Shown one piece after another: positions 5,914 through 21,563 of a DNA stretch of 33,720 bases. The first letter of the stretch is position 1, and every line of letters starts with the position of its first letter. A program made the translations under genes and the position numbers. The stretch spans positions 1 to 33,720 of the forward strand of contig CAMRBQ010000017.1 in assembly GCA_947040495.1 (NCBI GenBank), given 5' to 3'. The notes beneath the pieces were generated by a model that did not search any database, was not told the DNA's origin, and was given only the letters and a program-made list of their open reading frames with translations. This DNA comes from an uncultured Spirochaetia bacterium. GTDB lineage: Bacteria > Spirochaetota > Brachyspiria > Brachyspirales > Brachyspiraceae.

Positions 5914-7584
5914 TTATTTTTTATTTTGCTTAGCACCAGCACTTTCAAGAAGTTTTATAATTTCTGTATAAGATGAACTGGAGCTATCTTCATAACTTTT
6001 TGTATAGGCAAAGTTTAATGCAGTATGCCCATTATAATTTTTAATATTAAGATCAGCCCCTGATAATATCAAAAATTTAGCTGCCTCTACATTGCCTTCA
6101 TAACAAGCTATCATTAATGCCGTCCCATGATAACCGCAGTTCTTATCAATATCAACATTATTTTTTATAAACAATTTTAAAAAAGAAATATTGCCATCAA
6201 AAGCCGCCCACTTCAAAGGTGTAAAGTTATAGTTATCTTCAACATCTATAACAGCATTGTTTTTTATAAGTAACTCAGCAATCTTTATAGAGCCACCATC
6301 ATAAGCCGCAATTAAAGCAGTATATTTATTTTCCCCTTTGATATTTACATCAGCACCATTATCTATTAAATAATGCACTATGCTCATATTTCCAATATAA
6401 GAGGCATGCATTAAAGCCGTTATTCCACCACTATCCATAGCATTAATATCCACTCTATCTCTAAGCAGACTGCGTACCTTTTGAAAATCTTCTGCCTTGA
6501 CAGCCTCTATCAAAGGGACTTTATCGCCATGTGGATAAATGATAAACTTGTTTCTAATGAGTAGCTTAGTAAGATTATAATGTCCTGTTTCAGAAGCTGC
6601 AAATAAAACATAATCAAATTTTTCTTCGCTTTCTACAGTAGTGCCAGCTTCTATAAGTAATTCTAAAATTTCAATATGTCCATAGGCAGCAGCTGTAGAC
6701 AAAATTTCAGCATTAGCAGTTATACCATTTTCAATTAATTCATTAACTCTATCTATGTCGCCATTTTCGACTGCTTGATCTAAGGTATAATCATCCTCAT
6801 AACCACAACCATCATAGTAGTCAGCATTAGCACCCGCTTCTATAAGTAGATTTACAATCTCTTCATTGGCAGCGACACTCATAGCAGTAACACCATCTTC
6901 ATCGCTATGATTAACATCTGCCCCAGCCTTAATAAGCAAACTCACTATCTCTATATGACCTTCCCTAGAAGCATATATCAAAGGTGTAGCATCGCCATAA
7001 AAAGGGCTATAGTCTTTATAATCTGTAATATCAACTATAGACCCTGCATCGAGAAGTATCTTTACTATTTTTGTATCACCAGTACGTGAAACCTCTATCA
7101 ACGGCAGCCAACCGCCATCATTCTCTTCATTAACGTCTACCCCATGTTTAATAAAAAGTGAAACTATATCTGTATAGCCGTCCATAACCGCCCAACTAAA
7201 ACCTGTGCCACCTTCAGATCCTTGCACATTAATATCGGCGCCATTTTTTATTAGAAATTCTGCAATGTCCACATGGTTTCCCCTTGTCGCTCTATATAAA
7301 GCCACATAGCCATTATTATCTTTTGTATTAATATCAGCATTGTTTTTAACTAAAAGTTTTACAACTTCGAGATGTCCATGCCTTGAGGCAAATATTAATG
7401 CTGTTTCTCCATCATCATCAGTAACATTAACATCTGCCCCTTTTTTTATTAAAGCTTGTACTTCTTTTATATCGCCATTGATAGAGGCTTCAAATAAATC
7501 GTCATCTATAGTTTGAACATAAAGCGGCATTGAAGTCATAACAACAGTCGCAACAATAAATAAAATCAAAATAACACTTCGCAT
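5914..7584 (-). CDS. Secreted ankyrin-repeat protein (about 16 repeats)
   Basis: The 556-residue protein has a signal peptide (MRSVILILFIVATVVMTSM) followed almost entirely by ankyrin repeats of about 33 residues. I count roughly 16, with the usual TALxxAxxxGHxxIVxLLIxxGADVN pattern. Repeats in the middle (about 230-350) are more diverged. The last repeat carries an insertion with a serine run (DSSSSSYTE). Ankyrin solenoids bind other proteins, and the signal peptide puts this one in the periplasm, outer membrane or outside. The start has AAAGGA 6 nt upstream. The gene lies 33 bp after the DUF4139 gene in the same direction and is probably co-transcribed with it. No enzymatic domain is visible and the partner is unknown. 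Confidence 0.85.
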   Translation of the reverse strand: MRSVILILFIVATVVMTSMPLYVQTIDDDLFEASINGDIKEVQALIKKGADVNVTDDDGETALIFASRHGHLEVVKLLVKNNADINTKDNNGYVALYRATRGNHVDIAEFLIKNGADINVQGSEGGTGFSWAVMDGYTDIVSLFIKHGVDVNEENDGGWLPLIEVSRTGDTKIVKILLDAGSIVDITDYKDYSPFYGDATPLIYASREGHIEIVSLLIKAGADVNHSDEDGVTAMSVAANEEIVNLLIEAGANADYYDGCGYEDDYTLDQAVENGDIDRVNELIENGITANAEILSTAAAYGHIEILELLIEAGTTVESEEKFDYVLFAASETGHYNLTKLLIRNKFIIYPHGDKVPLIEAVKAEDFQKVRSLLRDRVDINAMDSGGITALMHASYIGNMSIVHYLIDNGADVNIKGENKYTALIAAYDGGSIKIAELLIKNNAVIDVEDNYNFTPLKWAAFDGNISFLKLFIKNNVDIDKNCGYHGTALMIACYEGNVEAAKFLILSGADLNIKNYNGHTALNFAYTKSYEDSSSSSYTEIIKLLESAGAKQNKK

Positions 7585-9349: not shown

Positions 9350-10492
9350 CTACCAAATATCTGCCTCGATATTTCCAAGCCTTGTATAATCTACTATTCT
9401 GGTAAGTTTATAATAATGCCCAACTATGTTTTTATATTTTAATCCCTTATTCGCCATTCCATAAGCACCCCACTGGCACATACCAACTCCGTGCCCTTTG
9501 CCTTTACCTACGATATCAATCCCCTTTCCATTTGGTTTTATGCTAAAAGACAAAGAAGGTATAACGGTTGCCCCTAGTTTTGAACGGAATTCGCTGGCTT
9601 TGATATCAACTTTTTGTCCATCGCTAAATAGCAATATTTTAGACACTTTACCCTTTCCCGCAGTACCAGTAACTTTCACACGGATATTTTTACTGCTACT
9701 AAAACCAAAAGAATCTTTTATATTTTCATAACTTATATGTGTAGTCCAAATCTCAGTTTTCTCTTTACAATAATAACAAGCAGTACCCCTTAAATATGGC
9801 ACATCTTTACCAAAGAGATTTTTTGTACTATCTGTATATCCACCACAAAGGCTATGAAAAAATGCACCTATAACTTTATTTTTGAAAGTTAGCACCTGAT
9901 TTTTTGTATCAACAACCGCCTTTTCGACATTCGCATTTATTTTATTTTTCCCATGATAAACTTGATATTTTGTTGTATTATCTACATCAAATACACGCCC
10001 CACTTTTTTATTCAGTGTATGATGATAAACAGCATAGGTACGAGCTGCTAATGCTTGGGCTTTTAATGCTTCTAATGGCCAATCAGGAGACATCTCATAT
10101 GGCAAAACACCCATTACATAATTTTCAATACCCAAACTATTTATGACTATACCCTTATCCCCATCACGAGTAATTATAATATCATCATAATATGATTTCC
10201 CATTTATAGTAAATCCATTTTCTGTTTCTATAAAAACACCGTTCCCATATGTACCAGAACCAACAACCTTTATACCACTTGGATGATCATGTATCTCAAT
10301 AGAATTATCATTGCCTGATATTATTTTACTTTCATATTTATAATTAAATACAGTGTAGGCACCATCCACTTCAATTGTTACTGGTAAACTTATTTCTGTT
10401 ATATGAACTTTTATATTAAACTCTTCTTTTGAATATAGACTCAAAGTAAATAGATATAAAATAAAAATTGCTGTAAATAGTGATTTTCTCAT
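9350..10492 (-). CDS. SpoIID/LytB-domain lytic transglycosylase
   Basis: The 380-residue protein has a signal peptide (hydrophobic residues 6-20). The SpoIID domain shows the hallmark segment GVLPYEMSPDWPLEALKAQA, in which the Glu after PY corresponds to the catalytic acid of SpoIID. ARTYAVYH follows. Later conserved parts are GAFFHSLCGGYT, RGTACYYC and the C-terminal GHGVGMCQWGAYGMA. Characterised SpoIID cleaves glycan strands that lack stem peptides. In a non-sporulating spirochaete the role is probably peptidoglycan remodelling in the periplasm. No clear Shine-Dalgarno precedes the ATG. A possible promoter is TTTATT-17-TATAAT in the 91-bp gap upstream. It follows the YidC-sulfatase copy 1 gene in the same direction. 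Confidence 0.85.
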   Translation of the reverse strand: MRKSLFTAIFILYLFTLSLYSKEEFNIKVHITEISLPVTIEVDGAYTVFNYKYESKIISGNDNSIEIHDHPSGIKVVGSGTYGNGVFIETENGFTINGKSYYDDIIITRDGDKGIVINSLGIENYVMGVLPYEMSPDWPLEALKAQALAARTYAVYHHTLNKKVGRVFDVDNTTKYQVYHGKNKINANVEKAVVDTKNQVLTFKNKVIGAFFHSLCGGYTDSTKNLFGKDVPYLRGTACYYCKEKTEIWTTHISYENIKDSFGFSSSKNIRVKVTGTAGKGKVSKILLFSDGQKVDIKASEFRSKLGATVIPSLSFSIKPNGKGIDIVGKGKGHGVGMCQWGAYGMANKGLKYKNIVGHYYKLTRIVDYTRLGNIEADIW

Positions 10493-10577: not shown

Positions 10578-13435
10578 TATATATTATTCATCAATTTTGA
10601 ACCAATTATTTGTATCATATATATTATCTTTAACATTGTAAACATTTCCTACATCATATTTATGAGTGAACTGAAATATTTCAGAGGTAAATACTTTTAT
10701 ACCATTATCTTTATAGTTGTTTGTAAAAACATTACCGGTAAATGGATTAGCAGGCTCTTCTAAATGACTGGTCGCTATGAAAGGAACATCAGCTATTGTC
10801 ATAAAATTACTACTATTTCCCAAAGGATGCTTGGAATTAAAATCCTTCACCAAAAGCAAAGAAGCAAATGCCCTATAATTCCACAACTCCTCTGTATTAT
10901 TCTCTACAGTAAGAAATCCTTCTCTACCATGATCAGATACTATGATAATTTTTGTATTATCATAGACATCATTTTCTTTTAGAAAGTTAAAATAATTCAC
11001 AAGAGTCTCTAACGAGGCAACATGAGCATAATAACTTCTCGCAGAAAACTCTGTTAGAAAATAATCCAAGTCGTCTTTTGGCACATCACTAATAACAGAA
11101 GAACTTCTATAATCACTATTAAAATTATCAGGGTCATGAGTTATATCAGAATGCATCATATTAAAATTATTACCCTCTTTCTTGGTATCTGTCATCGATT
11201 TCAAAGAAAGCATTAATGCATAGGTATGCATACTACTAATCTTAGATACTACTAAATTTTCTCCAGTTGCAATATACCAACCATCTCCATCATAAAAATC
11301 ATGCCTTAGAGGCAATGGCAGTATTCTAAATAATGAAAACCTCGAAAGTTTATATCGAAAATCGGTTATAATATTTGTACTTATATTTGTATTTTCAGTA
11401 TCAGAAATATTATATTGAAATATTTCATTCATACCCTCTTCTATAATTTCTACTGTAATATTATATGCTTTTATATTTGTATATTTATTAAAAATAGATA
11501 AATCTGGAACCCATGAGCCATTGGCATAGGTGGGCGCAAATGTAGCTGCAGAATAACCTATATCTGAAAACAGCTTAGGCATAACTAGTAATGCTTCATT
11601 ATGAATAGCCCAAGTATTAGCATTATCTCCCATTTTATCATTATTTTTATATATATCATATGGAGTATATTCATAACCACCATACAATGCTTGAATTCCA
11701 GGAAATGTATACATTGTAAAAGAAGTTGTATTTGTATAAAATATAAATCCTTCCATTTGTTCTTTAAGTTGAGGCATCCTTTTGAAAGCCTCTTCAAAAT
11801 AGATTGGACTACCTCTATCTAATATTATTATAAATATATTTTCACCATCTTTTGAATAATTAAATATACTAGATTTTTCCGAAACACTTATCTCACTACT
11901 CTTTGCAATATTTGATAATAATTTTTGCTCTCTATCGATATTAACAAATTCATATATAGATACTGCTGTCAAAGACAATGATATAATTGAAAATGCATAC
12001 TGTAAAAATATTATTTTTTTATGTTTAAATATTAAAAAAAGTATAACTAATAATAAAACCATCAAAAATATATTCAATATAGATTCTTGAATATCGGCCT
12101 TTAATCTATATGCAAAATCAAAAGAAAAATTTGGATTTATTGTTCCATAATTGCCCTGCAACAAAAATGTATGAATAATTGATATAAGAGCCAATAATGA
12201 TATAACAAAAACTACTATGTCTTTTAATTTATGAGAAAGCATCATATAGATACCAACAGGATAAATAAAAAATATACCAAAATAAATACAAAAATTAATT
12301 AGTACCAAATAAAATGGTTTTGCAAATTCCTGTGGCGAAGAACCTATTAATAACAATGGAATTAATAATCCAATCAATATAGTAAGAGATGATGAAGATA
12401 GCAGTAATAAATTAAATCTTTTTTTATCCTCTAATATTCTAATAGAATGCACAAAACGTTTAGTATAGCATTTTAACAGATATATAAAGAATAATAAAAA
12501 CCATACAATAGCCATATCAAAATAAGTTTTTTTATGAAGAAGCATTGGGCTATAAATATATAATATAGTCATAACCACTATTACTAGACTATAAATTAAC
12601 AAAACAAGTTTTATTATTAATTTAAAAATATTAAATGATTTTTTGTTCGAATGAAGTTTCGTCCATAAATAAATAATTTTATTCTTGTTATAGATAACAA
12701 TATTTTTCAACAATGAAAAGGCACAATTTATTGTCCAATACAATAACATCACTGCAGGGCTGTTATATAGCAATATTAAAAATATTATACTCATCGAATA
12801 TAATGACAATTGCTCTTTCAACATGAACTTATTATTTCTATCATCACACCATTTTTTGCTATCTATTTTTGTATACATATAACTTGAGAAAACACTAAAA
12901 AGTGTCATCACAAATGGTAAAACATTAATATTTATATTATTTATTTTTATTAGAGCATCACTGTTACTTAGGCTTGTAATACCCATGAAACTGACTAAAT
13001 TAAATCCTTCAACTGTTGAAAAAAAATTATATGCAGCAAAGAAAAAAGGGATTTGTATCAGAAGACCCATCGTTGATCTAAAAGCATATATCGCTTTGTA
13101 ACCATTGATTCGATGGCATGCTTTAATTAGCATATATCTTTTATCGCCTTTATATACAGATTTTATTACATCTATTTCTGGCTTCATCTTCCTTTGGATA
13201 ATATCTTCTTGTGCTTTCAACTTATCTGCTACAGCATAAATAGGTAATGCCAAGATATTTATTATAATACTTACAAAAAATAATGTGTTTATATAATTAG
13301 TTTTTGTATGTATAACAAAAAAATAAAATAATATTTCTATCAAATATCTTACTGGATATATGAAAACATGAAAAAATATATCAAAAATCACTTCCATCAA
13401 TTACTATCTCCCTGTCTCAAAAAAGCAGTTTAATC
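10578..13435. repeat. 2858-bp direct repeat, copy 1
   Basis: This unit matches 17845-20702 at a constant offset of 7267 bp. The only difference I find is base 10601 (A here, G at 17868 on the plus strand). The repeat spans one whole gene, its ribosome binding site and about 23 further bases, and ends abruptly on both sides. No terminal inverted repeats or transposase genes are seen. Confidence 0.95.
10584..13397 (-). CDS. YidC/Oxa1-like and sulfatase-like fusion membrane protein, copy 1
   Basis: The protein has 937 residues from the ATG; a TTG one codon upstream (13400) has better spacing from GGGAG (7 nt rather than 10) and remains possible. Residues 1-240 match the YidC/Oxa1 fold. There is a helix, an amphipathic cytoplasmic hairpin (KMKPEIDVIKSVYKGDKRYM), then MGLLIQIPFFFAAYNFF and a final helix with LLYWTINCAFSLLKN. 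The groove Arg of insertases (five residues before the Pro in TM1) is Asn here. Residues 260-487 hold about seven more helices. From about 520 an extracytoplasmic alkaline-phosphatase-superfamily domain follows: IIILDRG (metal Asp), a Thr-rich TTSFTMYTFPG likely to hold the nucleophile, THDP and IIIVSDHGRE (metal Asp and His). The sulfatase half resembles lipid head-group phosphotransferases such as LTA synthase. The substrate is unknown. Confidence 0.85.
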   Translation of the reverse strand: MEVIFDIFFHVFIYPVRYLIEILFYFFVIHTKTNYINTLFFVSIIINILALPIYAVADKLKAQEDIIQRKMKPEIDVIKSVYKGDKRYMLIKACHRINGYKAIYAFRSTMGLLIQIPFFFAAYNFFSTVEGFNLVSFMGITSLSNSDALIKINNININVLPFVMTLFSVFSSYMYTKIDSKKWCDDRNNKFMLKEQLSLYSMSIIFLILLYNSPAVMLLYWTINCAFSLLKNIVIYNKNKIIYLWTKLHSNKKSFNIFKLIIKLVLLIYSLVIVVMTILYIYSPMLLHKKTYFDMAIVWFLLFFIYLLKCYTKRFVHSIRILEDKKRFNLLLLSSSSLTILIGLLIPLLLIGSSPQEFAKPFYLVLINFCIYFGIFFIYPVGIYMMLSHKLKDIVVFVISLLALISIIHTFLLQGNYGTINPNFSFDFAYRLKADIQESILNIFLMVLLLVILFLIFKHKKIIFLQYAFSIISLSLTAVSIYEFVNIDREQKLLSNIAKSSEISVSEKSSIFNYSKDGENIFIIILDRGSPIYFEEAFKRMPQLKEQMEGFIFYTNTTSFTMYTFPGIQALYGGYEYTPYDIYKNNDKMGDNANTWAIHNEALLVMPKLFSDIGYSAATFAPTYANGSWVPDLSIFNKYTNIKAYNITVEIIEEGMNEIFQYNISDTENTNISTNIITDFRYKLSRFSLFRILPLPLRHDFYDGDGWYIATGENLVVSKISSMHTYALMLSLKSMTDTKKEGNNFNMMHSDITHDPDNFNSDYRSSSVISDVPKDDLDYFLTEFSARSYYAHVASLETLVNYFNFLKENDVYDNTKIIIVSDHGREGFLTVENNTEELWNYRAFASLLLVKDFNSKHPLGNSSNFMTIADVPFIATSHLEEPANPFTGNVFTNNYKDNGIKVFTSEIFQFTHKYDVGNVYNVKDNIYDTNNWFKIDE

Positions 13436-13440
13436 ATGTT

Positions 13441-13469
13441 ATATTATTATAGATAAATAAAAAAGTAAA
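13441..13469 (-). promoter_or_regulatory. Possible promoter for YidC-sulfatase copy 1
   Basis: The minus strand reads TTTACT (13464-13469), a 17-nt spacer and TAATAT (13441-13446). It lies just outside the large repeat, so copy 2 does not share it. The -35 match is moderate. Confidence 0.4.
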
Positions 13470-13478
13470 TATTTACGC

Positions 13479-14366
13479 TTATTGGAATTTATCGTATATC
13501 TCTAAGAATAAAACTATATTAGCTGTATTCATATTAATGTAGTTAATTAAATCATATATTTTTGGAGCCATATCTTGAGCCTGCTTTACTGTAAATGAGA
13601 CATTTGTTATCTGAGATGCCCCATGCTCTATTACTGAATTAATATTATCTTTATTCTCCATTAATATACTCATAAACTTTACAATATCATCAAACTCTAT
13701 ATTCATACTTTCTAAGTCGCGAAGCATTTCCATTAAATTAGAATCCAGAATTTCTATCAAATTTGTATCTGTAAGCATATTAAAAGAATCTTCTGTCATC
13801 GATACATTGGCATAAGATAAATATTGTTTAAATATTTGCATATATTTATTTAATGTTTCTTTATCTAAGCTAGACAATAATAATACGAAGTATTTACTCA
13901 TATCATCCAAATTAACATTAAGATTTTTCTTATGTTCATATTTATTTTTTAATATTGCCCCATATCTAGAATCTGATGTAAAAACAGTTGAGTTTTGATC
14001 CAATAATTTTTTTTTGTTATTACCTGGGTAAAATTTAATAGATGCTGTTTGAAGAAATACATTTCTATGGGGCACCAAAACACTATCATCTAATACTCTA
14101 TCTAAATATTTATTTTTAATAAAAAATTCAATCCGAATACTATTATTACTCAAAACATCAACAGAAGAAACACCTCCAACTTCAATACCGCTTATTGTAA
14201 TAGGGGTCCCATGTTTTATTGTAGAAATACCACTAAAATAAGCATAAAAATACGTCACTTGTCTAAATATTTTAATCCGACCAGATTTATATAAAAAAAC
14301 ACCTCCCACTAAAATAGCAAATAAAATAACAAAAAAAATATACTTATTTTTAAATTTTTTAAACAT
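13479..14366 (-). CDS. MCE-domain lipid-transport protein, third in operon
   Basis: The 295-residue protein has an N-terminal signal anchor (residues 10-26, FFVILFAILVGGVFLY), then an MCE domain at about 36-115 (ISTIKHGTPITISGIEVGGV and later LQTASIKFYPG). A helical C-terminal half follows. MCE proteins form hexameric rings in the periplasm that pass lipids between membranes and are anchored to the MlaE-type permease. The gene is last of three MCE genes in tandem and follows the second after 21 bp, with GGGGAT before the ATG. A run of nine A (around 14011-14019, minus strand) lies in the coding sequence near the end of the MCE domain. Confidence 0.8.
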   Translation of the reverse strand: MFKKFKNKYIFFVILFAILVGGVFLYKSGRIKIFRQVTYFYAYFSGISTIKHGTPITISGIEVGGVSSVDVLSNNSIRIEFFIKNKYLDRVLDDSVLVPHRNVFLQTASIKFYPGNNKKKLLDQNSTVFTSDSRYGAILKNKYEHKKNLNVNLDDMSKYFVLLLSSLDKETLNKYMQIFKQYLSYANVSMTEDSFNMLTDTNLIEILDSNLMEMLRDLESMNIEFDDIVKFMSILMENKDNINSVIEHGASQITNVSFTVKQAQDMAPKIYDLINYINMNTANIVLFLEIYDKFQ

Positions 14367-14387
14367 TTATATCCCCAAAACTAAAAT

Positions 14388-15242
14388 TTAATCTTTTATG
14401 CTATTTGTCAACATATCAATATATTTATCATATTCTTTAACCATATTTATAAAATACTTACTTTGATAATCTATAGTGTTTATATTTTTTCTTATTTTTT
14501 TAATTCTACGATTTTTTTGATCGTATAATTGCCCAATCTCTAACAAATCACTATATGATTTATTTAGGTTTAAATATAGACCATGTGAATATGAAAGAAT
14601 ATTAACAAAATCTTCCTTTGTTTCATCATTAAATATGGTATAAAATTTTTCAAAATCACTAGAGGCAAGTAAAGATGTTAATTCCAAAATATTCTCAGAA
14701 ATATCTTTTATACCATCATCTTTATTTAATAGTGATTGTAGTAGTATGTCTAAATTCAAAGATAATAAATTCACAGACAACAAATCACCCGATGCCTGAA
14801 TAATACTATGTGTATTTAAGTTATAAAAATCATCAATCACTATCTTCCCATTTTCTTTAATTAAAGGGCTACTACTACCTGCAACAGGATATAAAAATAA
14901 TTTCGAGCCGTCCAATAACAACTGTATAAAAATATCAGTATCTTCTCTCAAGGCATTAGAATAGTTATCATATAAAAAAAATTCTACATTAACTAAATCA
15001 TTCTGATTATTACTATCTACTAATTTTAAATCAACAACTTTGCCAATAACAATATCATTCATAATGACATCATTGCCTTTTTCTATGCCCCTAGAATTTG
15101 GAACTACCAAATTATAATAATTTCTACCCTGAAAAGCTTCTCTATGTTTTATAAAAAGGATAAGAGATAACATTAAAAACAAAACTAAAAAAGAAAAGAA
15201 TACAGTACCCCTTTTTTGCTTTGTAGTAAACACATAAGCCAT
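14388..15242 (-). CDS. MCE-domain lipid-transport protein, second in operon
   Basis: The 284-residue protein has a signal anchor at about 14-31, then an MCE domain at about 38-120 with NLVVPNSRGIEKGNDVIMND, IGKVVDLKLV and LDGSKLFLYPVAGSSSPL. The C-terminal region is helical and ends in a basic segment and a helix. It is the shortest of the three MCE proteins here. Its gene lies 7 bp after the first MCE gene, with AGGT before the ATG. The three paralogues differ enough that a mixed ring of distinct subunits is possible, as in mycobacterial Mce systems. That is inference from operon layout. Confidence 0.78.
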   Translation of the reverse strand: MAYVFTTKQKRGTVFFSFLVLFLMLSLILFIKHREAFQGRNYYNLVVPNSRGIEKGNDVIMNDIVIGKVVDLKLVDSNNQNDLVNVEFFLYDNYSNALREDTDIFIQLLLDGSKLFLYPVAGSSSPLIKENGKIVIDDFYNLNTHSIIQASGDLLSVNLLSLNLDILLQSLLNKDDGIKDISENILELTSLLASSDFEKFYTIFNDETKEDFVNILSYSHGLYLNLNKSYSDLLEIGQLYDQKNRRIKKIRKNINTIDYQSKYFINMVKEYDKYIDMLTNSIKD

Positions 15243-15249
15243 AAAATAG

Positions 15250-16164
15250 CTACCTAAACCTTTTATTAATATTTTTGATATCTTCTGATAGAGGGCTCAT
15301 ATTACTAGATATAAGTGCAGCATTGCTTATTAATATTTTCATATCAGGCATCATCTTATTAATTTCTTTTGTTGTAATTATAAGATCATCAGTAATAATA
15401 ACAGTATTGTCTATAATAGTTTCAAAATTATTTTTATTTTTTCTCAATAGCGAGGACAATTCTTTAACATCCTCACTAAGATAATAAATATTAGACAAAC
15501 TTTTTTCAAATATTTTAAATGAATTTGTAGCCACATTAATCACATTATCATCATTCAATAAATACCCTAATGTCCCTTTTGTCATCGACTTATTTAATTC
15601 AATCAAAATCGAGTTTACTTCTTTTAGAGTTGGCGATACCCCAATATATGGATCATTTAATGTTGACATTATCATATTGGCATTCAAAAGAGCATTGTCA
15701 ATATTAGCACTACTCGATATATTTCTCTCATATGCCGAGCGGTATCTAACGCCTTCTTCTGTATCCGAAGATAAAACTGTGGCATCTTCTTGAACAAGGG
15801 GGCTATCATCTGAGCCTGGATAAAGCACCAGTTCTGTAGTCCCTATAATCTGATTACGTAAGACAAGAACACTATTCTCTCTAACCCTATTTACATAACG
15901 GCTATATATTGTCAACCTAACTCTAATTGTGTTATCTTCTGTTAGAATAATTTCTTTTACTACACCGACAGGTATATTATGCAATGTTATAATAGTAGAC
16001 TTACTAATACCTTTGGCACTCTTGAAATCTGAAAAATATGTTTGCCCTATTCTAAACATACTCCTTTGACTTAAAAATAATGATAGTAATATTAGTGTCC
16101 CTATAAAACCTATAGTTAAAAATGTAATAACCATTTTCTCTGTTTTTTTGAAAGTATAAGCCAT
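15250..16164 (-). CDS. MCE-domain lipid-transport protein, first in operon
   Basis: The 304-residue protein has a signal anchor at about 11-30 (MVITFLTIGFIGTLILLSLF) and an MCE domain at about 38-120. The domain is clear: FSDFKSAKGISKSTIITLHN, IPVGVVKEIILTED, then RNQIIGTTELVLYPGSDDSP. The C-terminal 180 residues are predicted helical and would form the barrel or stalk seen in larger MCE assemblies. AAAGGT precedes the ATG, and the gap after the ATPase gene is 10 bp. Of the three this is closest to the MlaD type. No MlaB, MlaC or MlaA gene is present next to it. Confidence 0.82.
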   Translation of the reverse strand: MAYTFKKTEKMVITFLTIGFIGTLILLSLFLSQRSMFRIGQTYFSDFKSAKGISKSTIITLHNIPVGVVKEIILTEDNTIRVRLTIYSRYVNRVRENSVLVLRNQIIGTTELVLYPGSDDSPLVQEDATVLSSDTEEGVRYRSAYERNISSSANIDNALLNANMIMSTLNDPYIGVSPTLKEVNSILIELNKSMTKGTLGYLLNDDNVINVATNSFKIFEKSLSNIYYLSEDVKELSSLLRKNKNNFETIIDNTVIITDDLIITTKEINKMMPDMKILISNAALISSNMSPLSEDIKNINKRFR

Positions 16165-16174
16165 AGTAACCTTT

Positions 16175-16891
16175 TTACAAAAAACTTTTTATTATTCTAT
16201 CCTCTTCTGCTAAAGAATCAATAACAACTACATCTCCATCAAAATAAATACGCCCTTCATGCACAACTATAACACGCTTAATAAACCTTTTTAATTTTGT
16301 GATAGAAGAATGGCTCATAACCAATGCAACGGCATTTTCAGACACATAATTTTCTACAGCATCAAATAAAATATCTAGATTTAAAAAGCTCAAAATATCA
16401 TCCACAAAAAGCAAATCTGGGCTATGTATAATAGCTCTTATATAATTGATAAGTTTTTTTTCTGACGGCGTTAAATATATAGGAAATTTATCTATAGCTT
16501 CCCTATCAAAACCAAATTCATCAAGCTTTTCTAAGACGATATCCTCTATTTGTTGATCAGTCATATTTGTATTTATATAATAATAATATGTAAGATTATC
16601 ATATACACTCATACTATAAAGTAAAGCATTATGCTGAAAATAAAAACCATGTTTAGATTTATCTTTCATCAATTCATACTTTGATGTACTTACTGTATCA
16701 TGCCCACGTAAATATATATTTCCTTTAAGTGGAGATATCAGACCAGATGCTAATTTCAATATAGAGCTCATTCCTTCGCCACTTCTTGTAACTATACCGA
16801 CTTTTTCATTTTCACTAATACCAAATGATACATTATCTAAAATATTTTTTTCATTTGATGAATAAGATACATTTTCAAATTTTAATAACAT
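16175..16891 (-). CDS. MlaF-like ABC ATPase with degenerate catalytic motifs
   Basis: The 238-residue protein has the full length and layout of an ABC ATPase and sits where MlaF is expected, 9 bp after the permease gene. Several signatures are altered. The Walker A segment (35-43) reads TRSGEGMSS, so the first Gly and the Lys of GxxGxGK[S/T] are replaced (Lys to M41). The signature loop is LTPSEKK (140-146) instead of LSGGQ. The Walker B end is FVDDILSFL, with Asp165 in place of the catalytic Glu. The Q-loop Gln86 and the switch His194 (VMSHS) are kept. The frame is intact and other positions are conserved, so this looks like a maintained but slow or inactive ATPase, not a decaying gene. Aagga overlapping the permease stop is the ribosome binding site. 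Confidence 0.8.
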   Translation of the reverse strand: MLLKFENVSYSSNEKNILDNVSFGISENEKVGIVTRSGEGMSSILKLASGLISPLKGNIYLRGHDTVSTSKYELMKDKSKHGFYFQHNALLYSMSVYDNLTYYYYINTNMTDQQIEDIVLEKLDEFGFDREAIDKFPIYLTPSEKKLINYIRAIIHSPDLLFVDDILSFLNLDILFDAVENYVSENAVALVMSHSSITKLKRFIKRVIVVHEGRIYFDGDVVVIDSLAEEDRIIKSFL

Positions 16892-16900
16892 TTTTTTTCC

Positions 16901-17719
16901 TTATAGCGTATAAGTATAAAATAAAAACGTTATCAAACCATTCAAAAAAAACACCCATAGAAACCCCATAACACCACCTTTTTGTGTGGCTAATGCAATA
17001 CCATTTAATGACCCACCTGCCTTAAAGCCCGCATATGCTGACGTCACACTTATTATACCACCCAATACCATAGATTTTAAGAAAATAATAAATATATCCC
17101 AAAAAGAAAATGAAGCAAAAAGATTCGTTATAAATGAAACATAGTCTATTGAGGGATTTAATAATTTATTTGCAAATACACCACCAAATATACCAACACA
17201 ATCAAATATAATATTCAAAAATAACATGGAAACCATGATACCAATAAACCTAGGTAAAAGTATAAGCTGAAGTGTATTGCCCCCCATAGATTCCATTGCT
17301 TGCATCTCTTCATTTATAACCATAGTTGCAATCTCTGAACTCATAAAAGCACTACTTCTTGCAATAACAATTATAGATGTAAATAATGGACCAAATTCCC
17401 TTACTATAACTATAGAAAATATTAAGCCTGTTATATCTGATGTTATTAAATTTTCAAATTGCTGTAAATAAAATGTGGTTAAAAATCCAAGCAATAATGC
17501 TACCATTACTATAAGCACCACAGACTTTACGCCTGTATAGTATATCTGTTGTACTGTCTCTTTATAAAGTATACTCTTGCTTCTATTACGTAAATGTATC
17601 AATTCTACAAATGATTGAAAAAACAGTGCCAACATCCCACCTATTGTATCTATTTCTCTAAATATTAATGTAGATATTATTTTGTAGTATTTTAAAAAAT
17701 AAAATTTAATTGTTTTCAT
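16901..17719 (-). CDS. MlaE/YrbE-type permease of an MCE lipid transporter
   Basis: The 272-residue membrane protein has the MlaE fold. It begins with an amphipathic segment and five or so membrane helices follow from about 65. The conserved cytoplasmic coupling region MVINEEMQAMESMGGNTLQL is followed by LLPRFIGIMVSMLFLNIIFD and GIFGGVFAN, and the C-terminal part has GGIISVTSAYAGFKAGGS. Permeases of this family dimerise, bind the ATPase through the Glu-rich loop and feed lipid to the MCE ring. The gene starts the operon on the minus strand. No good Shine-Dalgarno precedes the ATG. Two weak promoter candidates lie in the gap before it, one of which seems to have lost its -35 to the upstream insertion. 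Confidence 0.85.
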   Translation of the reverse strand: MKTIKFYFLKYYKIISTLIFREIDTIGGMLALFFQSFVELIHLRNRSKSILYKETVQQIYYTGVKSVVLIVMVALLLGFLTTFYLQQFENLITSDITGLIFSIVIVREFGPLFTSIIVIARSSAFMSSEIATMVINEEMQAMESMGGNTLQLILLPRFIGIMVSMLFLNIIFDCVGIFGGVFANKLLNPSIDYVSFITNLFASFSFWDIFIIFLKSMVLGGIISVTSAYAGFKAGGSLNGIALATQKGGVMGFLWVFFLNGLITFLFYTYTL

Positions 17720-17735
17720 AATCGTATATATCTTT

Positions 17736-17764
17736 TTTATATTTGCCTATCAGTAATAGTTTAA
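17736..17764 (-). promoter_or_regulatory. Possible promoter for the MCE operon
   Basis: The minus strand shows TTAAAC (17759-17764), a 17-nt spacer and TATAAA (17736-17741), ending 17 bp before the permease ATG. The match is moderate. Read-through from the upstream copy 2 gene is an alternative source of transcripts. Confidence 0.3.
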
Positions 17765-17785
17765 TATATTTTTTAAATAAATCTA
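17758..17785. repeat. 28-bp direct repeat on the left of YidC-sulfatase copy 2
   Basis: This sequence is identical to 20724-20751. With a 3-base gap the match extends a few bases further left (the AATAGT before it). The pair brackets copy 2 of the large repeat and looks like a target duplication or recombination scar. It includes the -10-like TATATT (minus strand) at 17763-17768. Confidence 0.85.
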
Positions 17786-17843
17786 TAATTTATTTCTTTC
17801 TTGTATCATCTGCTTTTTTATCTTTAATCTATAATTTATTTCT
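17780..17843. repeat. Two 18-bp direct repeats, period 46 bp
   Basis: The 18-mer AATCTATAATTTATTTCT occurs at 17780-17797 and again at 17826-17843, in the gap between the copy 2 stop and the permease start. The second unit ends one base before the large repeat begins at 17845, so it may mark the junction. Confidence 0.8.
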
Positions 17844-17844
17844 A

Positions 17845-20702
17845 TATATATTATTCATCAATTTTGAGCCAATTATTTGTATCATATATATTATCTTTAA
17901 CATTGTAAACATTTCCTACATCATATTTATGAGTGAACTGAAATATTTCAGAGGTAAATACTTTTATACCATTATCTTTATAGTTGTTTGTAAAAACATT
18001 ACCGGTAAATGGATTAGCAGGCTCTTCTAAATGACTGGTCGCTATGAAAGGAACATCAGCTATTGTCATAAAATTACTACTATTTCCCAAAGGATGCTTG
18101 GAATTAAAATCCTTCACCAAAAGCAAAGAAGCAAATGCCCTATAATTCCACAACTCCTCTGTATTATTCTCTACAGTAAGAAATCCTTCTCTACCATGAT
18201 CAGATACTATGATAATTTTTGTATTATCATAGACATCATTTTCTTTTAGAAAGTTAAAATAATTCACAAGAGTCTCTAACGAGGCAACATGAGCATAATA
18301 ACTTCTCGCAGAAAACTCTGTTAGAAAATAATCCAAGTCGTCTTTTGGCACATCACTAATAACAGAAGAACTTCTATAATCACTATTAAAATTATCAGGG
18401 TCATGAGTTATATCAGAATGCATCATATTAAAATTATTACCCTCTTTCTTGGTATCTGTCATCGATTTCAAAGAAAGCATTAATGCATAGGTATGCATAC
18501 TACTAATCTTAGATACTACTAAATTTTCTCCAGTTGCAATATACCAACCATCTCCATCATAAAAATCATGCCTTAGAGGCAATGGCAGTATTCTAAATAA
18601 TGAAAACCTCGAAAGTTTATATCGAAAATCGGTTATAATATTTGTACTTATATTTGTATTTTCAGTATCAGAAATATTATATTGAAATATTTCATTCATA
18701 CCCTCTTCTATAATTTCTACTGTAATATTATATGCTTTTATATTTGTATATTTATTAAAAATAGATAAATCTGGAACCCATGAGCCATTGGCATAGGTGG
18801 GCGCAAATGTAGCTGCAGAATAACCTATATCTGAAAACAGCTTAGGCATAACTAGTAATGCTTCATTATGAATAGCCCAAGTATTAGCATTATCTCCCAT
18901 TTTATCATTATTTTTATATATATCATATGGAGTATATTCATAACCACCATACAATGCTTGAATTCCAGGAAATGTATACATTGTAAAAGAAGTTGTATTT
19001 GTATAAAATATAAATCCTTCCATTTGTTCTTTAAGTTGAGGCATCCTTTTGAAAGCCTCTTCAAAATAGATTGGACTACCTCTATCTAATATTATTATAA
19101 ATATATTTTCACCATCTTTTGAATAATTAAATATACTAGATTTTTCCGAAACACTTATCTCACTACTCTTTGCAATATTTGATAATAATTTTTGCTCTCT
19201 ATCGATATTAACAAATTCATATATAGATACTGCTGTCAAAGACAATGATATAATTGAAAATGCATACTGTAAAAATATTATTTTTTTATGTTTAAATATT
19301 AAAAAAAGTATAACTAATAATAAAACCATCAAAAATATATTCAATATAGATTCTTGAATATCGGCCTTTAATCTATATGCAAAATCAAAAGAAAAATTTG
19401 GATTTATTGTTCCATAATTGCCCTGCAACAAAAATGTATGAATAATTGATATAAGAGCCAATAATGATATAACAAAAACTACTATGTCTTTTAATTTATG
19501 AGAAAGCATCATATAGATACCAACAGGATAAATAAAAAATATACCAAAATAAATACAAAAATTAATTAGTACCAAATAAAATGGTTTTGCAAATTCCTGT
19601 GGCGAAGAACCTATTAATAACAATGGAATTAATAATCCAATCAATATAGTAAGAGATGATGAAGATAGCAGTAATAAATTAAATCTTTTTTTATCCTCTA
19701 ATATTCTAATAGAATGCACAAAACGTTTAGTATAGCATTTTAACAGATATATAAAGAATAATAAAAACCATACAATAGCCATATCAAAATAAGTTTTTTT
19801 ATGAAGAAGCATTGGGCTATAAATATATAATATAGTCATAACCACTATTACTAGACTATAAATTAACAAAACAAGTTTTATTATTAATTTAAAAATATTA
19901 AATGATTTTTTGTTCGAATGAAGTTTCGTCCATAAATAAATAATTTTATTCTTGTTATAGATAACAATATTTTTCAACAATGAAAAGGCACAATTTATTG
20001 TCCAATACAATAACATCACTGCAGGGCTGTTATATAGCAATATTAAAAATATTATACTCATCGAATATAATGACAATTGCTCTTTCAACATGAACTTATT
20101 ATTTCTATCATCACACCATTTTTTGCTATCTATTTTTGTATACATATAACTTGAGAAAACACTAAAAAGTGTCATCACAAATGGTAAAACATTAATATTT
20201 ATATTATTTATTTTTATTAGAGCATCACTGTTACTTAGGCTTGTAATACCCATGAAACTGACTAAATTAAATCCTTCAACTGTTGAAAAAAAATTATATG
20301 CAGCAAAGAAAAAAGGGATTTGTATCAGAAGACCCATCGTTGATCTAAAAGCATATATCGCTTTGTAACCATTGATTCGATGGCATGCTTTAATTAGCAT
20401 ATATCTTTTATCGCCTTTATATACAGATTTTATTACATCTATTTCTGGCTTCATCTTCCTTTGGATAATATCTTCTTGTGCTTTCAACTTATCTGCTACA
20501 GCATAAATAGGTAATGCCAAGATATTTATTATAATACTTACAAAAAATAATGTGTTTATATAATTAGTTTTTGTATGTATAACAAAAAAATAAAATAATA
20601 TTTCTATCAAATATCTTACTGGATATATGAAAACATGAAAAAATATATCAAAAATCACTTCCATCAATTACTATCTCCCTGTCTCAAAAAAGCAGTTTAA
20701 TC
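17845..20702. repeat. 2858-bp direct repeat, copy 2
   Basis: This unit matches 10578-13435 at a constant 7267-bp offset. Both ends break sharply: the base before 17845 and the base after 20702 differ from copy 1. The single internal difference found is at 17868, 24 bp inside the left end. Confidence 0.95.
17851..20664 (-). CDS. YidC/Oxa1-like and sulfatase-like fusion membrane protein, copy 2
   Basis: The 937-residue protein is identical to copy 1 except for Leu in place of Phe five residues before the C-terminus (NNWLKIDE against NNWFKIDE). The architecture is therefore the same: a YidC/Oxa1-like N-terminal part with the groove Arg replaced by Asn, about seven added helices, then an extracytoplasmic sulfatase-superfamily domain. 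The same start choice applies (ATG at 20664, or TTG at 20667). It lies directly upstream of the MCE operon in the same direction, 131 bp before the permease ATG. Its upstream DNA beyond 20702 differs from that of copy 1, so the two copies may be expressed differently. A promoter-like TTGTTG-17-TATATT lies at 20729-20757. Confidence 0.85.
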   Translation of the reverse strand: MEVIFDIFFHVFIYPVRYLIEILFYFFVIHTKTNYINTLFFVSIIINILALPIYAVADKLKAQEDIIQRKMKPEIDVIKSVYKGDKRYMLIKACHRINGYKAIYAFRSTMGLLIQIPFFFAAYNFFSTVEGFNLVSFMGITSLSNSDALIKINNININVLPFVMTLFSVFSSYMYTKIDSKKWCDDRNNKFMLKEQLSLYSMSIIFLILLYNSPAVMLLYWTINCAFSLLKNIVIYNKNKIIYLWTKLHSNKKSFNIFKLIIKLVLLIYSLVIVVMTILYIYSPMLLHKKTYFDMAIVWFLLFFIYLLKCYTKRFVHSIRILEDKKRFNLLLLSSSSLTILIGLLIPLLLIGSSPQEFAKPFYLVLINFCIYFGIFFIYPVGIYMMLSHKLKDIVVFVISLLALISIIHTFLLQGNYGTINPNFSFDFAYRLKADIQESILNIFLMVLLLVILFLIFKHKKIIFLQYAFSIISLSLTAVSIYEFVNIDREQKLLSNIAKSSEISVSEKSSIFNYSKDGENIFIIILDRGSPIYFEEAFKRMPQLKEQMEGFIFYTNTTSFTMYTFPGIQALYGGYEYTPYDIYKNNDKMGDNANTWAIHNEALLVMPKLFSDIGYSAATFAPTYANGSWVPDLSIFNKYTNIKAYNITVEIIEEGMNEIFQYNISDTENTNISTNIITDFRYKLSRFSLFRILPLPLRHDFYDGDGWYIATGENLVVSKISSMHTYALMLSLKSMTDTKKEGNNFNMMHSDITHDPDNFNSDYRSSSVISDVPKDDLDYFLTEFSARSYYAHVASLETLVNYFNFLKENDVYDNTKIIIVSDHGREGFLTVENNTEELWNYRAFASLLLVKDFNSKHPLGNSSNFMTIADVPFIATSHLEEPANPFTGNVFTNNYKDNGIKVFTSEIFQFTHKYDVGNVYNVKDNIYDTNNWLKIDE

Positions 20703-20723
20703 TTAATTTAATTTAGCAATAGT

Positions 20724-20751
20724 AGTTTAATATATTTTTTAAATAAATCTA
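20724..20751. repeat. 28-bp direct repeat on the right of YidC-sulfatase copy 2
   Basis: This sequence is identical to 17758-17785. It lies between the start of copy 2 and the end of the 267-residue gene. The base after it begins a -35-like TTGTTG that the left-hand repeat lacks. Confidence 0.85.
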
Positions 20752-20757
20752 CAACAA
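20729..20757 (-). promoter_or_regulatory. Possible promoter for YidC-sulfatase copy 2
   Basis: The minus strand reads TTGTTG (20752-20757), a 17-nt spacer and TATATT (20729-20734). The -10 is inside the 28-bp repeat and the -35 is immediately outside it. Before copy 2 arrived this could have been the MCE operon promoter. Confidence 0.45.
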
Positions 20758-20759
20758 GT

Positions 20760-21563
20760 TTATATTTTCTCTTGTTTTTTTATATCTTCATTCAACTTTT
20801 TCTTCCAAAGGTCACGTACCTTTTTCTGTTCACTCGACTGGTCTGCTTCACCCAAATAGGCATGTATGACACGCAAAGCATCAGATAAATTTATTGCAAA
20901 ACGCATGTCTTCTACATTTTTATCTTTAAGTTCATATCTTTTTCGATACTGTTCTGAGCTCTCTGCCAACAATCTTTTTGTAAGTTTCATATGATTAGAT
21001 CTCTCTACATAACCTACAGCACCAGGTTCTAAAAGGCGTATAAATGATTTAAAGTTTATCATGTTTTTTGTAAGAAGAGCAAAACGCCCCTCTAGTTCTA
21101 CAAAGTTCCATTTCCATTTTGAGTTCTCGCCATAAAAATATTTCACATAATCTATCATATATCCAAGTGAACATATAAAATTATATTTCCATTTATCATC
21201 AAACTTTCCTTCCAAGGCTTCATGCACCTCTTCATTATAAGACAAAGATTCATCTGTTGCATTTCCATAGACATCTTCACATAATACGATAACCTTGCTT
21301 ACAAGCTTTCTGGCCTCATTTAATTCACCTTCCATTTTTATAGCCAAAGTACCATATGATACAGAATTGATAGCATAATGATATGATGCTTGTATAAGAG
21401 ACATAAAAGCTATATCTATTTTTTGATCCAAATTAGCCTCTTCAGAATCTTTTATTTTCTTTTCAATATCTATAATTCTCTTTTCAAGACTTTCAATCTT
21501 ATCTTCGTACTCCCTCTGCTTTTCTTTACACTGCCCCCTCAATGCCTCTGTTACTTTAACCAT
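20760..21563 (-). CDS. Helical protein of unknown function
   Basis: I do not recognise this 267-residue protein. Residues of about 10-45 form a strongly charged coiled coil (KEKQREYEDKIESLEKRIID and on). The rest is predicted mostly helical, with aromatic-rich segments such as KWKYNFICSLGYMIDYVKYF and a charged C-terminus ending LWKKKLNEDIKKQEKI. There is no signal peptide and no membrane segment, so it is probably cytoplasmic. AGGAG lies 8 nt before the ATG and supports the start. It is divergent from mnmE, with 133 bp between the starts, and lies upstream of YidC-sulfatase copy 2 on the same strand. Confidence 0.7.
   Translation of the reverse strand: MVKVTEALRGQCKEKQREYEDKIESLEKRIIDIEKKIKDSEEANLDQKIDIAFMSLIQASYHYAINSVSYGTLAIKMEGELNEARKLVSKVIVLCEDVYGNATDESLSYNEEVHEALEGKFDDKWKYNFICSLGYMIDYVKYFYGENSKWKWNFVELEGRFALLTKNMINFKSFIRLLEPGAVGYVERSNHMKLTKRLLAESSEQYRKRYELKDKNVEDMRFAINLSDALRVIHAYLGEADQSSEQKKVRDLWKKKLNEDIKKQEKI

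Follow-up and report, generated by a model that had tools for sequence, protein, structure and literature searches.

Two copies of a YidC-like/LtaS-like fusion gene bracket an MCE lipid-transport operon in an uncultured member of the Brachyspiraceae

In the 33,720-nucleotide stretch of DNA analysed here (the window), from an uncultured Brachyspiraceae species, two directly repeated copies of a putative envelope phosphotransferase gene lie on either side of an MCE lipid-transport operon. The reading that we favour, at a probability of about 0.6, is a real chromosomal duplication of this gene around the operon, either young or homogenised. One gene copy would close the MCE run, with co-transcription presumed; the other would have been inserted at the upstream region of the operon, a 29-bp piece of which (about 60 bp at 82%) now stands on both sides of that copy. 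The copies would be similar enough to form a single de Bruijn path, which the k=55 assembly would have printed twice. Their near-identity could come from youth or from homologous recombination (gene conversion), and the data favour neither. The gene product would span the membrane several times and act as a phosphotransferase of the LtaS/PbgA/MCR superfamily; its N-terminal part is a YidC/Oxa1-like domain without the insertase arginine. It probably serves to place phosphate-linked headgroups onto an envelope glycolipid or polymer, beside an inter-membrane lipid transporter.

The first-pass annotation had described two direct 2858-bp units that differ at one base, exchanging Phe for Leu, and script comparison reproduces this as printed (Table 1). 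The single mismatch, A/G on the plus strand, lies near the gene end (TTC in copy A, CTC in copy B), in a k=55 assembly whose repeat interior is not copy-resolved. Outside both repeat ends, identity in the same comparison falls to background, about 25–35%. Each copy holds one minus-strand open reading frame of 938 codons, in which codon 2 is ATG. The repeat comprises this gene, a 35-bp leader, and 6 bp past the stop, with unrelated sequence beyond. The earlier observation of an intact gene in each copy and no transposase also holds: no transposase was found among the scanned window ORFs or, where a composite transposon would carry it, in the flanking repeats. Elsewhere in the window's genome, we found no third repeat copy, and no further paralog of the fusion gene at E<=1e-20. 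At the locus, promoter and terminator scans performed no better than on shuffles, and there were no matches to Rfam families, tRNAs, or phage families. Elsewhere in the window, a 556-residue ankyrin-repeat protein is encoded at 5914–7584, adjoining the gene for a PPDK-like enzyme.

Table 1. Features of the repeat locus (positions in the window).
Feature	Position	Strand	Remarks
Neighbour, SpoIID-domain protein	9350..10492	-	domain match
Repeat copy A, 2858 bp	10578..13435	-	fusion gene 10584-13400 and 35-bp leader; closes MCE run
Fusion protein	10584..13400	-	YidC/Oxa1-like domain (aa 40-237), more membrane helices, LtaS/PbgA/MCR-like phosphotransferase domain
Sole mismatch between copies	10601 (partner 17868)		Phe in A, Leu in B; just outside shared 55-mer path
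MCE-domain protein 3, 295 aa	13479..14366	-	PF02470; alignment
MCE-domain protein 2, 284 aa	14388..15242	-	PF02470; alignment
MCE-domain protein 1, 304 aa	15250..16164	-	PF02470; alignment
MlaF-type ABC ATPase	16175..16891	-	PF00005; NCBIfam MlaF model matched below cut-off
MlaE-type permease	16901..17719	-	PF02405, E=8.4e-48
Partner 29-bp repeat	17757..17785	-	between copy B and mlaE, about 60 bp past copy B
Repeat copy B, 2858 bp	17845..20702	-	fusion gene 17851-20667 and same 35-bp leader; upstream of MCE operon
29-bp exact repeat	20723..20751	-	20 bp upstream of copy B; BLAST extension 20714-20775, 82%
Neighbour, 267-aa protein (orf267), no assigned function	20760..21563	-	present in 29/29 family genomes

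How far the printed identity can be trusted depends on the assembly. The genome is a draft of 165 contigs, the smallest of which (2526 bp) suggests a binning cut-off at 2.5 kb. A sample of 40 of its small contigs, eight of them masked, gave three independent overlaps between contig ends and other places, each exactly 55 bp long. These exact overlaps identify the genome as a k=55 de Bruijn short-read assembly, very probably a metagenome bin; 55 is the final k of default metaSPAdes. The window contains a single run of repeated 55-mers (10602–13435, 2834 bp), and the mismatch falls directly outside it. Metagenome assembly from short reads merges small differences into a consensus and works with fragments below 1000 bp (PMC8021871), so that a 2.8-kb repeat cannot be spanned. 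Because a k=55 graph prints one shared path twice, copies that are 100% identical and copies a few percent diverged would print the same interior, and the printed identity alone says little about how alike the physical copies are. From the one shared path, we infer a real identity of at least roughly 97%. The earlier step from identity to a very recent duplication or to ongoing gene conversion is thus not supported as stated, since the assembly collapses the repeat. More generally, striking identity in a draft assembly of metagenome type can stem from the assembly graph, and two simple signs test for this: exact k-mer overlaps at contig ends, and the position of the surviving mismatch.

If the identity were true, with one difference in 2858 bp, the duplication would be very recent and the MCE operon would be a recombination-prone module, lost or amplified. 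The copies are direct and intact with no mobile element, all other paralogs are strongly diverged, and the flanking 29-bp repeat is exact (0/29 differences). This reading is nevertheless doubtful, given an interior that is not copy-resolved. Moreover, the chance that a single, uniformly placed mismatch lands no more than 24 bp from an edge is 1.7%, whereas such a position is what assembly would leave if it preserved differences at the edges alone. Nor does the genome show a deleted or amplified form, though the assembly would hardly reveal one. The arithmetic put forward at first pass is sound: recombination between the copies would remove 7267 bp and leave one intact fusion gene. Transporter instability is a fair prediction for homologous direct repeats, as a purely generic expectation. 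It is very improbable that the fusion pair serves as a recombination handle, with a 7267-bp circle or deletion coexisting with the integrated form and the MCE operon thereby reversible. Were this so, the cell would switch between envelopes with and without an MCE lipid-transport route, always keeping one fusion enzyme.

With the repeat as R and the unique segments as A, B, and C, the graph can be read linearly only as A-R-B-R-C, and the same contig would result from a chromosome A-R-C together with a circle R-B. The chromosome might then run from orf267 through one fusion gene to the SpoIID gene, while the MCE operon and its own copy would reside on a 7267-bp circle, or in some strains only. 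The identical graph, the k=55 draft with its bin-like contig cut-off, and the failure of relatives to keep an MCE operon beside the fusion gene all speak for such a join, but we judge it unlikely. What makes a circle less likely is that genes for replication, mobilisation, or integration are absent from the 7267-bp unit. Furthermore, a unique 29-bp repeat connects both sides of copy B: the exact sequence occurs at these two flanking positions and nowhere else in the genome. Its bases were assembled independently of the collapsed path, and it speaks for a genuine duplication at this site. Probably copy A, which closes the MCE run, is the older, and copy B is the newer, having been placed in the region upstream of the operon.

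BLAST lengthens the 29-bp repeat to 62 bp at 82%, an extension past the core that is not significant under base-composition control (about 8–19% of matched windows score equally). If the small repeats arose in the same event as the gene copies, 82% beside a near-identical gene would favour gene conversion, subject to that same composition control. Concerted evolution, in which an old pair is held identical by frequent conversion, matched copies being useful, is decidedly unlikely. It would account for a repeat that stops 6 bp after the stop codon at one end and with the leader at the other, and for a small flanking repeat that looks diverged where the gene does not. However, the extension that suggests divergence is weak, and near-identity is absent in the 13 other multicopy genomes. 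The extension was also considered as a relic of orf267, and rejected: its score is matched by 0.6% of windows but by 8.5% of A-rich windows, and by 9–19% for the other flank. Within 17768–17844, between copy B and mlaE, there are two direct copies of an 18-bp sequence, AGAAATAAATTATAGATT, whose starts are 46 bp apart.

The favoured duplication is taken to be young or homogenised because within-genome paralogs elsewhere (the same 13 genomes) are 63–81% identical, none of them nearly so close, and an old unconverted pair would not collapse into one path. One apparent near-identical pair, in genome G347 (L188/L189), was set aside. Its two contigs (C13 and C18) share 19,397 identical bp and so do not record a local duplication; they are probably redundant assembly. 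A composite-transposon-like or phage-borne module, with the genes as its ends, scarcely deserves credence. The cargo is indeed bracketed by direct repeats, but there is no transposase, integrase, terminal inverted repeat, or phage-family match, and the repeat ends coincide with gene ends.

Between the copies lies a complete five-gene MCE set, as had been claimed: MlaE, an MlaF-type ATPase, and three MlaD/MCE-domain proteins, with PF02405, PF00005, and three PF02470 matches all above gathering scores. Like other MCE/Mla transporters, this one has its MlaE, MlaF, and MCE-domain proteins within one operon. It differs in having three diverged MCE proteins (21–24% identity to the first one), versus one in the nearest relatives, and in having fusion genes at both sides. 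The three proteins possibly form a mixed-subunit MCE ring. The nearest relatives of MlaE (42–43% identity) come from two genomes of the same order and another family, both lacking the fusion gene; within the window's own family, the other genomes retain just a distant MlaE. No other family member has an MCE operon adjoining the fusion gene, an adjacency seen only in the window genome. Where sampled genomes carry both genes on one contig (for example, G087, G270, G331, and G355), a distance of about 59 kb or more separates the fusion gene from MlaE. The window locus ties a fusion enzyme gene physically to an MCE lipid transporter.

The N-terminal domain of the fusion protein matches the YidC/Oxa1 family (PF02096, E=2.5e-16; TIGR03592 below cut-off), and its profile also matches solved YidC structures. 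The C-terminal half gives a weak sequence match to the sulfatase/alkaline phosphatase superfamily. A structure prediction built from 34 homologs (mean pLDDT 81, pTM 0.75) shows a multi-TM anchor joined to a sulfatase-fold domain, as in LtaS. Foldseek places PbgA, LtaP, LtaS, and MCR-1 among the top matches to this model, with E values of about 1e-7 for LtaP and PbgA and 3e-6 for LtaS. In a viral structure library, only giant-virus sulfatases matched.

Five residues are invariant in 34/34 homologs: Asp528, Thr565, His755, Asp823, and His824. These we take, by motif rather than by superposition, to be the Thr nucleophile and metal-binding Asp/His set of LtaS; by motif, the fusion protein thus has the conserved nucleophile and metal ligands of LtaS-like phosphotransferases. 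The column aligned with the groove arginine of YidC, which matters for YidC2-type insertases, holds Asn, Ser, or Thr in all 34. We therefore do not class the protein as an insertase. With this arginine replaced, the N-terminal part may be a YidC-like domain whose function has changed, perhaps to handling the lipid substrate.

Several known systems share parts of this architecture. LtaS and LtaP of Listeria, Staphylococcus, and Bacillus have membrane helices followed by an extracytoplasmic domain of the alkaline-phosphatase superfamily (Foldseek matches 4uop, 2w8d, 4uor, and 2w5r), and the candidate Thr, His, and Asp-His residues are conserved in the fusion family. The fusion protein differs in its preceding YidC/Oxa1-like domain of about 200 residues and in its spirochete host. 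PbgA/YejM and MCR-1, inner-membrane sulfatase-fold proteins, provide the best Foldseek match (6xlp; also 9nww) and a common context of envelope lipids. They lack the extra YidC-like domain, whereas the fusion family has it, is multicopy, and retains Thr565 throughout. YidC/Oxa1 insertases share the profile and structure matches but, unlike the fusion protein, are not joined to an enzyme and do not have Asn, Ser, or Thr in the arginine column.

Relatives of the fusion protein were found in 102 of the 393 genomes sampled across the phylum, with a single genome often carrying two or more, and in 16 of the 29 family genomes (window genome included). Our literature search found no description of a YidC-LtaS fusion in Treponema or spirochetes. 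The scan of genome contigs yielded no close relative, and no synteny around orf267 was found with Brachyspira or family genomes. These proteins (10584–13400; homologs L034-L055 and L152-L168) constitute a large, multicopy spirochete family that couples a YidC/Oxa1-like domain, with arginine changed to N/S/T, to an LtaS-like phosphotransferase.

Neighbouring genes may hint at the kind of headgroup involved. In Brachyspira, fusion genes lie near phosphocholine, aminoethylphosphonate, and teichoic-type genes, which encode PEP mutase, a TPP-dependent decarboxylase, an aminotransferase, cytidylyltransferases, a LicC-LicA-like fusion, EutH, and CDP-glycerol glycerophosphotransferase. The same gene make-up characterises the Pnt (aminoethylphosphonate) and Lic (phosphocholine) surface-tailoring clusters, and Treponema denticola PntC is a characterised aminoethylphosphonate cytidylyltransferase (PMC6697681). 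These neighbours suggest a route for decorating spirochete envelopes with phosphocholine, aminoethylphosphonate, or glycerophosphate. In the window genome, by contrast, the fusion genes adjoin the MCE operon instead; since they are not beside licCA or phosphonate genes, any headgroup named for them is a guess from relatives. That genome has one glycerophosphotransferase, on a contig other than that of the fusion genes, and a LicC-like cytidylyltransferase that adjoins a BCCT-type choline/betaine transporter (L235:3830-6004, contig C31 of G000). At three Brachyspira loci (L208:8692-14831, L209:5516-11819, and L202:5488-8293), fusion genes flank, or sit next to, operons that would activate aminoethylphosphonate or phosphocholine/ethanolamine, together with a glycerophosphotransferase.
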